Source: Citrifermentans bemidjiense Bem | GTDB lineage: Bacteria; Desulfobacterota; Desulfuromonadia; Geobacterales; Geobacteraceae | DNA: 64,000 bases | NCBI RefSeq assembly: GCF_000020725.1 | Contig: NC_011146.1 | Location: 3,161,501-3,225,500 of the forward strand | Direction: 5' to 3' | Part shown: in pieces, positions 4,400 to 38,274 of the stretch | Layout: every line of letters begins with the position of its first letter | How positions within the stretch are numbered: the stretch's first letter is position 1 | Program-made: the position numbers and the translations under genes | Notes under the pieces: model-generated | What the model saw: the letters and a program-made list of their open reading frames with translations, nothing else | Databases searched by the model: none | What the model was told of the DNA's origin: nothing

Positions 4400-4503
4400 A
4401 AATAGCGCTTCCTTTTGCGATTGGATTGGAGGTTTTACCAATCGCCACAATAATAAAATATGCCCTACAAATCAAACTAATAATTGTTCAATGTTATTAA
4501 ACA

Positions 4504-4532
4504 TTTGCCCTCAGGATTCACCGTGCTATAAT
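4504..4532 (+). promoter_or_regulatory. Predicted sigma-70 promoter of the LOG-family gene
   Basis: A perfect TATAAT (4527-4532) lies 17 nt after TTTGCC (4504-4509). This would give a transcript start near 4539, about 24 nt ahead of the ATG at 4563. The -35 box is weak. Read by eye only. Confidence 0.5.
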
Positions 4533-4562
4533 GGCCGCCTCATTCCAACAGGGAGCGCCCTC

Positions 4563-10409: not shown

Positions 10410-10675
10410 AAAAAAGCCTCCGCCCCAGCAAGGGGCGAAGGCTTTCATAAAAGCTTCCGCGGTACCACCCTCATTCATCCGCATCATGCGGACCTCGTTT
10501 ACCCTTTACGCGGGTGACGGCCACAGCTAGCACGCGGTACCGAAGTAGAACACGTGTTTCACTGCAGCGGCTCAAAGGCGAGTTCACCTTGCTTCCTCAC
10601 CGGTTCGCACCAACCACCGGCTCTCTGAAGGGGAAGGGAAAGGCTACTACTCCTCATCACTGCCTTTACATTTCA
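10410..10675 (-). ncRNA. T-box leader (tRNA-Leu sensing) upstream of leuA
   Basis: On the minus strand, the conserved T-box sequence AGGGTGGTACCGCG lies at about 10458-10471. Upstream are stem I elements: an AGAGAGCCGGTGG region and GGTGAACTCGCCTTTGAGC, in which CTC (10580-10582) sits at the specifier position, a leucine codon. Downstream is the terminator hairpin (10415-10446). Uncharged tRNA-Leu would stabilise the antiterminator and allow leuA transcription. T-boxes are chiefly a Gram-positive mechanism; leuA T-boxes in Geobacter-type deltaproteobacteria are an established exception. The specifier was assigned by eye from its neighbours. Confidence 0.9.
10415..10446 (-). terminator. T-box regulated terminator hairpin
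   Basis: On the minus strand a GAAAGCCTTCGCCCC / GGGGCGGAGGCTTTTT hairpin ends in a T run. It lies about 12 nt after the T-box sequence, so the antiterminator and terminator can compete. Confidence 0.9.
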
Positions 10676-34872: not shown

Positions 34873-35195
34873 TGAAGCTCTGCCCTCGTAACTTCTTTTA
34901 TTTAGGTTCTGCGCGGCCTGCAGGCTTCCCAACCCCACCTAGACCGGCATCACAAATCCAGGAAACGCTACTTAATACAATAGTTGCCCCCCGAAGTCAA
35001 TGGAAAAGCTGTCCGGACACGCGCCCGGCGGCCTTGCTGCAGAAGTCGACAGAGCCCCGCGCAACGGCAAAGAGAGTCGGCACCCGCACAGCGTTAGGCT
35101 GTAATAATTTTTCCAAAAACTCCTAATGTCGGGTATCCTCTTTGACGATAAGAATCCTGCCCGACGTCTATTACACTGCAGAGGGGGATGACTAT
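34873..35195. other. Intergenic stretch with no gene seen
   Basis: No coding or RNA gene can be supported here. It should hold the prs promoter and that of the divergent PilZ gene. In relatives I know of, tRNA-Gln lies just upstream of prs; here it is 4 kb away. Confidence 0.6.
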
Positions 35196-35600
35196 ATGGA
35201 ACAGCGGCGTTTTCACCGGGTACAAAGCAGGGCGCCCGGCGAACTGTCACATTTCGGGATGGACTACAAGTGCCGACTGGAGAATGTCTCCTTGAGGGGC
35301 GCGCTGATCAGCGCGGACGAGTGCATAATGATCCCTGTCGGCGACTGCTGCACGTTCTCTGTCGTTTTGGAGCCCGAGACCGCGCCTGTAGTCATTACCG
35401 CCTGCATCGTGCACAGCTTTTTTTCCATGGTGGGGGTGAAGTTCATTAATTTTTCAGGGGACGCCGAGGAGCGATTGCTCAGCTTCATGCAGAGGTTGAC
35501 CACCGAACCCGAGAAATTGAAGCAGGAGTGGGAAATGATACAGGAGAAAAGACGTAAAAGCCGCGAAGAGTGCTGCCTGCCCACAGCAACCAGATCCTGA
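35196..35600 (+). CDS. PilZ-domain protein (probable c-di-GMP receptor)
   Basis: The 134-residue protein has the PilZ c-di-GMP motifs RRFHRV near the N-terminus (RxxxR form) and NVSLRGALISAD (D/NxSxxG form, about 28-39), followed by beta strands and a C-terminal helical tail with basic residues (EKRRKSREE). The ATG at 35196 has AGAGGGGG upstream. It stands alone on the plus strand, about 700 nt from the genes of the riboswitch cassette, and would link the locus to cyclic dinucleotide signalling. Target unknown. Confidence 0.85.
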   Translation: MEQRRFHRVQSRAPGELSHFGMDYKCRLENVSLRGALISADECIMIPVGDCCTFSVVLEPETAPVVITACIVHSFFSMVGVKFINFSGDAEERLLSFMQRLTTEPEKLKQEWEMIQEKRRKSREECCLPTATRS

Positions 35601-36277: not shown

Positions 36278-36306
36278 TTGACATGCCTCAGACCTTGCGC
36301 TATGTT
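36278..36306 (+). promoter_or_regulatory. Predicted promoter of the riboswitch transcript
   Basis: TTGACA (36278-36283) is followed after 17 nt by TATGTT (36301-36306). Transcription would start near 36313, about 15 nt ahead of the aptamer. Confidence 0.72.
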
Positions 36307-36327
36307 TCCATCACATTCCAGCATAGA

Positions 36328-36438
36328 TAGACGACAATACTAAACCATCCGCGAGGATGGGACGGAAAGCCTACAGGGTCTCCAAGAGACAGCCGGGTCG
36401 CCGAAATATCGATCGATATTTTTGGCCCCGGCTTTTTT
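36328..36438 (+). ncRNA. GEMM-I riboswitch, bases suggest the 3',3'-cGAMP subclass
   Basis: The aptamer has the GEMM-I core: TAAACCATCCGCGAGGATGG (hairpin with GNRA-type GCGA loop), GACGGAAAGCCTACAGGG and AGACAGCCGGGTCGCCGAAA (tetraloop receptor side). Aligned to the Vibrio Vc2 aptamer, the base at position 20, which is G in c-di-GMP riboswitches, is A (36339), and the 21-46 pair is C-G (36340, 36365) rather than G-C. A at position 20 is the mark of cGAMP-selective GEMM-Ib members described in Geobacter. The expression platform is a terminator: GCCGGGTCGCC pairs with GGCCCCGGC, followed by six T residues (to 36438). The left arm is also part of the aptamer, so ligand should turn expression on. 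Confidence 0.88.
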
Positions 36439-36505: not shown

Positions 36506-36811
36506 ATGAAAAAAGTCGTTTTAACCCTGGCAGTTGTAGCCGCTGCCGCCTTCGCCGTCGCTAGACCGGGAGCGGCCCAAGCCAGCTCGGTGGACCTGAA
36601 CATCCAACTGGGCGCTTACATCCCGGCCCCTCCGGGGGTGAGGATCTACGTCGAAGCCGGGCGCCCCTATTACGTGGAGAACCACAGGCGCGTCTACATG
36701 AAAAAAAGGCACCACGAAGACCACGGCAGGCATTTGGGGCACTACAAGGAAGAACACCACGACAGGGAAGAGGGGCACGGGAAAGAGCACGGCAGGCACG
36801 GCCGCGACTAA
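36506..36811 (+). CDS. Small exported His-rich protein under riboswitch control
   Basis: The 101-residue product has a signal peptide (KKVVLTLAVVAAAAFAVA, ending AQASS). The mature part has a short beta-type segment (LGAYIPAPPGVRIYVEAGRP) and a C-terminal tail very rich in His, Glu, Lys and Gly (HHEDHGRHLGHYKEEHHDRE), which could bind metal ions. I know no function. ACGGAGGAGAC precedes the ATG at 36506. It directly follows the riboswitch and lies 33 nt ahead of the DUF4382 lipoprotein gene, so both are probably on the same transcript. Confidence 0.8.
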   Translation: MKKVVLTLAVVAAAAFAVARPGAAQASSVDLNIQLGAYIPAPPGVRIYVEAGRPYYVENHRRVYMKKRHHEDHGRHLGHYKEEHHDREEGHGKEHGRHGRD

Positions 36812-36844: not shown

Positions 36845-37777
36845 ATGAAAAGAATAACGGCAGCATTCAAACCGGCTGTCATCGCTATCTGCGTTATCGT
36901 GGCAGCCTTCGCGTATCTTGCCGGTTGCAGCGGCGGAGGAGGCGACGCCAGCAAAGGGACCCTCAAGCTTTCCATAACCGACAGGCAAAGCGACAACTTC
37001 GGCAAGGTAATCATCGCCATACGCGAGATACGGGTAGTCCCCAGAGGATTTGAAGGCGCAGCCGACAACGATGCCAACCTGCCGGTGCTGGTCCGGTTCA
37101 CCACGCCCAAAGTGATCGACGTCATGGCCTTGAGGTTTATCCAGGAACCCCTGGGAGACATCATCCTCCCCGCAGGGAACTACAGCCAGATCAGGCTGGT
37201 CCTGGAACCCAACCCCACGGGCAATCGTCCCCCGGTCAACTACCTCACGCTCAGCAGCGACGTCAACGGCACCAATCCGATTCCCCTGGACACCCCCAGC
37301 GGGCAGCAGTCCGGGCTCAAGGTGCTCGGGCCGATCGAGGTAAAGGCCGGAATCATCAACGCAGTCATGATCGACTTCGACCCCAACACCGCCATAGTTT
37401 CGCGAGGCAACGGCGGCTACAACCTGAAGCCGACCGGGATCAGGATGGTGCAGATGGCAAACGAACTGCCGCAGTTCGGTTCCATCGTCGGCAACGTCAG
37501 TTCCAGCTTCGGGCATTGGTCCAGCGCCACCGTCGCCATCAAGAGGCGCGGGACGGTTAACGACACCGACCCCATCGCCGCCGGGCGCATCTTCTCCAGT
37601 TACACCAGCGGCAGATGGCAGGCCCCCTTTGCCGCCTTCGTACCGGCGGCCAGCGGCAGCCTCGGCTATAAGACGTTCATAACCACGAACGGCTTCGCCT
37701 TGTATTCGTCCCAGACAGTATCGGTGGTACAGAATCAGGCGACCGATCTGGGCGAGATAGTACTGACACCACGGTAA
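36845..37777 (+). CDS. DUF4382 lipoprotein
   Basis: The 310-residue product has a lipoprotein signal (hydrophobic core, then LAGC with Cys 28) and a glycine-rich linker. The mature part begins GTLKLSITDRQSDNFGKVII, the start of DUF4382, a beta-sandwich of unknown function in exported proteins, and continues with LPAGNYSQIRLVL and GIINAVMIDFD. A second beta domain may follow from about residue 215 (GSIVGNVSSSFGHW). AGGAGGAGA precedes the ATG. It is the second gene of the riboswitch unit and ends before a GC hairpin. Confidence 0.85.
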   Translation: MKRITAAFKPAVIAICVIVAAFAYLAGCSGGGGDASKGTLKLSITDRQSDNFGKVIIAIREIRVVPRGFEGAADNDANLPVLVRFTTPKVIDVMALRFIQEPLGDIILPAGNYSQIRLVLEPNPTGNRPPVNYLTLSSDVNGTNPIPLDTPSGQQSGLKVLGPIEVKAGIINAVMIDFDPNTAIVSRGNGGYNLKPTGIRMVQMANELPQFGSIVGNVSSSFGHWSSATVAIKRRGTVNDTDPIAAGRIFSSYTSGRWQAPFAAFVPAASGSLGYKTFITTNGFALYSSQTVSVVQNQATDLGEIVLTPR

Positions 37778-37788
37778 GAGCAAACCTG

Positions 37789-37820
37789 CGGCGCCGGTCC
37801 TTCACAGAGGGCCGGCGCCG
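37789..37820 (+). terminator. GC-rich hairpin after the DUF4382 gene
   Basis: CGGCGCCGG (37789-37797) and CCGGCGCCG (37812-37820) form a stable hairpin followed only by TTGTTG. It may be a weak terminator or a processing signal, with read-through to the hemerythrin gene. Confidence 0.55.
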
Positions 37821-37836
37821 TTGTTGGGAGAGCGGT

Positions 37837-38274
37837 ATGCCTATAATTCAATGGAATGTAAATCTTTTGGTGGGAATACAGGAAATCGACCGGCATCACA
37901 AGCAGTTGGTGCAATCGCTGAACACGGTCTATGACGAGTTTCGGGAAGGTAAAGAGATCGAGTTGTCGTTCCTGCAGGAGTTGATCGCCTACGCCGCTCA
38001 CCACTTCGCCTGTGAAGAGCAATGGATGAAGAAGACGGGGTACCCCAAGCTGCAAGCCCACCGGGAAGAGCATGCCCTCTTCACCAGCAGGGTCGCCGAT
38101 TTCAAGACGGGCCTGAAAGACAACGGCAAGATATCAGTAGAGTTGATCTGGTTTTTGTGCAACTGGGTGACGCACCACATAGGCGAAAGCGATGCCGAGT
38201 TCGGACGCTTCGTCGATGTCCACAACATCCGTACCAGGGGCGACCAGCCCGGCAAGATCGCCGGCGACAGCTGA
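37837..38274 (+). CDS. Bacteriohemerythrin
   Basis: The 145-residue protein is a four-helix diiron O2-binding hemerythrin. Iron ligands are seen as IDRHHKQLV (H about 20), HHFACEE (H and E at about 55-60), HREEHALF (about 74-81) and HHIGESD (about 113-119). The length is that of single-domain cytoplasmic hemerythrins, which bind or deliver oxygen; it might serve oxygen sensing or scavenging in an anaerobe. It follows the riboswitch unit on the same strand, 16 nt after a GC hairpin. It is convergent with a ferritin-like gene. Confidence 0.93.
   Translation: MPIIQWNVNLLVGIQEIDRHHKQLVQSLNTVYDEFREGKEIELSFLQELIAYAAHHFACEEQWMKKTGYPKLQAHREEHALFTSRVADFKTGLKDNGKISVELIWFLCNWVTHHIGESDAEFGRFVDVHNIRTRGDQPGKIAGDS

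Follow-up and report, generated by a model that had tools for sequence, protein, structure and literature searches.

Within the window, the whole 64,000-nucleotide stretch of DNA analysed from the metal-respiring bacterium Citrifermentans bemidjiense, a GEMM-I aptamer with an overlapping terminator was identified in front of the genes for a His-rich exported protein and a DUF4382 lipoprotein. Judged from its sequence and its likeness to described Geobacter switches, it is highly probable that this leader is a GEMM-Ib (3',3'-cGAMP) riboswitch that turns transcription of both genes ON. The class of switch is already known; as far as the literature searches show, what is new is the DUF4382 lipoprotein as a widely kept target.

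Results

Aptamer fold and ligand pocket

The aptamer spans positions 36326–36410 (+) from P1 to P1, as delimited by the family match, the pocket letters and the pair counts. An Rfam cmscan of the whole window placed RF01051 at 36329–36405 (+) with 43.0 bits (E 4.3e-5, model positions 1–87), above the gathering score of 35, and the leader is therefore a member of the GEMM-I riboswitch family. With 36326 counted as base 1, the leader nucleotides A14, C15 and G40 are found at 36339, 36340 and 36365. We take 36339 to be equivalent to G20 of the Vc2 riboswitch, and 36340 and 36365 to its G21 and C46. The letter read at 36339 is A and not the G of the c-di-GMP type of GEMM-I. An earlier note on this DNA had claimed the aptamer core, the A at Vc2 position 20 and a C36340–G36365 pair replacing G21–C46, and had named a covariance-model search as the check; the letters and the family score agree with it on each point.

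The pocket of a crystallised cGAMP riboswitch is given as G8, A9, A11, A12, A14, C15, G40, A41, A42 and C75 (PMC6274999, partial text). All of these nucleotides are present in the aptamer; C75 corresponds here to base 76 (36401), since the J1/3 G–C sits one base further on when P3 is taken one base longer. By this mapping, 36401 is the ligand-pairing C. To follow the fold across relatives, 50 leaders were collected and five duplicates removed, leaving 45 distinct leaders. The named aptamer pairs were formed in 98.9% of 990 cells, and pocket base A12 was replaced by C in six of the 45 leaders. Five pairs had changed on both sides compared with an average of 2.1 in shuffles, only 4 of 500 shuffles reaching five; the covariation supports the aptamer.

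A further co-variation, as A–C or G–U, was seen between base 37 (36362) and base 74 (36399) of the leader in 64 of 68 distinct pattern-found aptamers, a count taken over related sequences with uncorrected significance, and in all 13 pattern-found aptamers of the C. bemidjiense genome. A wobble-type contact between these bases is possible. The aptamer described here has A at base 37 and C at base 74, one of the two common combinations.

Terminator and promoter

Folding revealed an intrinsic terminator with a T-run at 36392–36438 (+). Its stem, GCCGGG..GCC/GGC..CCCGGC, followed by TTTTTT, shares sequence with P3 and P1 on their 3' side. For the 117-nt leader a folding energy of −44.2 kcal/mol (z −4.3) was computed, a value equalled by none of 200 shuffles, and this fold of the free leader is that of the terminator; when the aptamer pairs are enforced, the energy is −25.5 kcal/mol, a difference of 18.7 kcal/mol favouring the terminator. 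In shorter transcripts the P2 and P3 hairpins are formed, and at 104–107 bases the long stem of the terminator emerges. From the shared strand and the computed energies, the terminator is predicted to be mutually exclusive with the aptamer, as in an ON platform.

A simple terminator scan did not list 36392–36438, probably because the stem is bulged; the two sites that it gave lie elsewhere on the minus strand, a number no greater than expected by chance. Across the leaders, the terminator pairs were formed in 92.8% of 443 cells, with the terminator spoiled in L058 and L109. One pair had changed on both sides, which is not above shuffles (81 of 500 reach one doubly changed pair). The terminator, whose 5' arm is the nearly invariant aptamer strand, shows little covariation and is supported by its fold and its T-run.

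A sigma-70-type promoter, TTGACA-17-TATGTT, is located at 36278–36306 (+) with 10 of 12 matches. As a single match it is not above chance (one found, 1.5 expected in the 3.25 kb scanned), and its weight therefore comes from the relatives. In 29 of the 30 leaders scanned out of the 50 collected, the best sigma-70-like pair begins with TTGAC, the exception being L113, and these promoter-like pairs end 10–32 bases before the first base of the leader. The overlapping terminator and the promoter just upstream, both proposed in the earlier note, were thus recovered by folding and by the similar boxes at the same place in relatives.

Downstream genes

The first gene behind the switch (36506–36811, +; ATG at 36506) encodes a His-rich exported protein of 101 aa with a signal peptide, recognised by eye, and 10 His within its last 36 residues; no Pfam or NCBIfam match to it was found. 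The second (36845–37777, +) encodes a DUF4382 lipoprotein of 310 aa, which matches PF14321 over profile positions 1–136 of 136 with 112.1 bits against a cut-off of 25 (E 3e-32) and is thereby a member of that family. A lipobox-like LAGC was recognised by eye, and residues from about 207 to 310 were modelled as a transthyretin/CnaB-like beta-sandwich by structure prediction and fold comparison. The PF14321 match, the signal peptide and the lipobox-like motif agree with the two targets that had been named for the switch.

A bacteriohemerythrin gene follows at 37837–38274 (+; NF033749, E 1.8e-34), and between it and the DUF4382 gene stands a 15-bp hairpin lacking a T-run at 37788–37821 (+; z −4.49 for 37775–37836). 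The partial text of PMC2996986 gives Gbem_2773 as a hemerythrin locus tag in Geobacter bemidjiensis, the earlier name of C. bemidjiense; judging by where that number should fall in the series of locus tags, it would be the gene at 37837–38274. A literature search by the locus tags Gbem_2770 to Gbem_2773 returned mentions of Gbem_2773 only.

Near the switch, a gene at 35142–35600 (+) encodes a PilZ-domain protein (PF07238), a possible cyclic-dinucleotide receptor, and a PilZ-like gene was seen by eye at the same place in six of ten loci viewed. Elsewhere in the window, a T-box leader was found at 10428–10669 (−) with 114.4 bits.

Conservation of the target

Of 97 genomes, 47 have a relative of the His-rich protein and 52 a relative of the DUF4382 protein, C. 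bemidjiense included. Within the genus, the two genes are adjacent and in the same order in 15 of 19 genomes, and the His-rich gene lies between the switch and DUF4382 in 15 of 19. Altogether 59 DUF4382 places were listed, and the survey covers 48 of them in 47 regions (30 loci and 17 further stretches), the other 11 being partial or more distant. RF01051 was found upstream on the same strand in 37 of the 47 regions (28 of the 30 loci and 9 of the 17 stretches). Upstream GEMM-I was not found in the other ten (L073, L074, L137, L142, L143, L144, L145, L148, L149 and L151); L137 and L145 are second DUF4382 copies, and the other copy in those genomes has the switch. A separate named collection, which overlaps the 47 regions in species, held RF01051 in 32 of 38 loci, and two of its six misses, L126 and L131, start at the DNA edge.

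All typed RF01051 matches in the relatives' loci have A20 (35/35, 39/39 and 45/45, in sets that overlap and include some matches not in front of DUF4382); the typing leaves out an RF03167 match in L114. Every typed GEMM-I upstream of DUF4382 has A20. Among the His-rich loci, an upstream same-strand match was present in 22 of the 29 scanned (L025, L030 and L040: more than 450 bases away). DUF4382 is thus a more constant target than the His-rich gene, which is its partner in most of the genus.

A second A20 GEMM-I was observed downstream of DUF4382 in L102, L104, L105, L107 and L128, near 4414–4541. This second aptamer has, in L104 and L105, a hemerythrin-like gene on its upstream side and another gene (Ysc84 in L104) on its downstream side. 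The C. bemidjiense aptamer L014 precedes a similar-looking gene, judged by eye, elsewhere.

GEMM-I aptamers and candidate synthases in the same genome

The C. bemidjiense genome contains 14 GEMM-I aptamers above the cut-off; A20 is present in 12 of them and G20 in the other two. L001 is of the canonical type, and L003 has G20 in an Ib-like context. A search with the Ib-core pattern gave 11 exact copies, one copy with one mismatch and one further site with two mismatches, against five sites for the reversed control pattern. L013 (C1:2179112–2179188) and L003 (C1:2178925–2179000, minus) form a tandem, an A20 aptamer and then the Ib-like G20 aptamer, in front of one lipoprotein-like gene; a two-signal arrangement responding to cGAMP and c-di-GMP is possible there.

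The genome has 22 GGDEF matches, L094 and L095 being pieces of one frame. A Hypr Ser in place of the cyclase Asp was found in L087 (REC-GGDEF; GHLIGS, GGDEY) and L096 (GYAKGS by eye, GGDDF), and a Thr occupies this place in L093. L087 and L096 are thus putative Hypr GGDEF enzymes and candidate synthases for cGAMP. They resemble GacA (Ser348) and GSU1937 (Ser, GGDDF) as given in the partial text of PMC8835794.

Discussion

Ligand, direction and extent of control

In the proposed mechanism, transcription would start from the promoter at 36278–36306. When the ligand is absent, the downstream arm would capture the 3' side of P3 and P1, C36401 included, and the terminator would form. If cGAMP supplied by a Hypr GGDEF enzyme occupies the pocket before this happens, P1 and P3 would stay paired; the terminator would be prevented from forming, and transcription would run on into the His-rich and DUF4382 genes. 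We infer the ON direction from the architecture, which is like that of the pilM switch, described as a cGAMP ON riboswitch whose aptamer and terminator are mutually exclusive (PMC9262584, partial text).

The ligand is very probably cGAMP, judging from A20 and the pocket around it, which resembles that of cGAMP riboswitches already tested. According to the partial text of PMC6456294, changing A20 to G in the Gmet_0970 GEMM-Ib switch gave a variant selective for c-di-GMP, and A20 in such a context is for this reason a good sign of cGAMP preference. The same text states that deletion of gacA in G. sulfurreducens lowered all genes behind GEMM-Ib riboswitches. It also describes the OmcST riboswitch as sensitive to both cGAMP and c-di-GMP. 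In the available part of PMC12285248, several predicted cGAMP targets were up where cGAMP was lower, which counts against a cGAMP ON switch, and c-di-GMP binding to GEMM-I switches is suggested as one explanation. The OmcST sensitivity and this suggestion speak for a switch that is promiscuous or prefers c-di-GMP in vivo: with A20 accepting either ligand, c-di-GMP as the more abundant one would be the effector. We consider this unlikely, as the pocket matches the residue list of the crystallised cGAMP riboswitch, selectivity for c-di-GMP was obtained by the A20G change, and no typed GEMM-I in front of DUF4382 has anything but A20, while G20 aptamers (L001 and L003) are present elsewhere in the C. 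bemidjiense genome. It could further be argued, from the 18.7 kcal/mol by which full-leader folding favours the terminator and from terminator-side covariation no higher than in shuffles, that the aptamer is decayed or non-regulatory and that the terminator merely attenuates the operon. The nearly invariant pocket and the paired stems across the 45 distinct leaders, together with the TTGAC box upstream of 29 of the 30 scanned, make this very improbable.

A functional cGAMP switch might reach beyond its two targets, as the earlier note had suggested for the hemerythrin gene. Read-through would then join three genes in one operon with a link to oxygen handling. A hemerythrin-like gene, recognised by eye, follows DUF4382 in six of the ten loci viewed (L097, L098, L104, L105, L108 and L115) and was not found there in the other four (L113, L120, L129 and L134). 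A strong GC hairpin separates the two genes here and in four relatives that were folded, but it has no T-run and may not stop RNA polymerase. The gene order thus lends the extension some weight and the hairpin takes some away; control of the hemerythrin gene by the switch is possible, though we would stop short of calling it probable.

Comparison with known systems

The partial text of PMC6456294 links signalling by cGAMP in Geobacter to the reduction of solid iron. The cGAMP targets named in the literature, as far as the partial texts go, are cytochromes, pilus genes and a lipoprotein transpeptidase operon, several others being left as hypothetical genes; the part of PMC10599522 at hand gives the G. 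sulfurreducens gene GSU1018, which has a GEMM-I element, as hypothetical. The 2010 genome paper noted that the C. bemidjiense genome, too, carries riboswitches already described in G. sulfurreducens and G. metallireducens, and the present switch may already be listed in the 2015 PNAS papers (Kellenberger, Nelson) or their supplements. With its gene preceded by an A20 switch in 37 of 47 regions, the DUF4382 lipoprotein makes a good candidate for a surface component still missing from this picture. We tentatively suggest that it may be a core cGAMP output across Geobacterales, an adhesin-like surface protein made on touching solid metal oxides and accompanied in most of the genus by a His-rich metal-binding partner. 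Both proteins may act at the cell surface while the cell is in contact with solid electron acceptors. Compared with DUF4382 (PF14321) itself, the protein described here matches the full profile and adds a lipobox-like motif and a C-terminal part predicted to be transthyretin/CnaB-like.

With the Vc2 GEMM-I c-di-GMP riboswitch, the main type of RF01051, the switch shares its fold and family model; taking the Vc2 letters as we assume them, G20 is changed to A and G21–C46 to C–G. Its closest likeness is to the Geobacter cGAMP (GEMM-Ib) riboswitches Gs1761/pgcA, Gm0970 and pilM, a comparison drawn through the partial texts of PMC6456294, PMC8835794 and PMC9262584, with Kellenberger 2015 and Nelson 2015 cited via them. 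A20, the pocket letters, the overlapping terminator and a putative ON design are common to both. The combination of A at leader base 37 and C at base 74 sets the present switch apart from them. The Geobacter switches precede cytochromes or pili, whereas the one described here precedes a His-rich protein and a DUF4382 lipoprotein.
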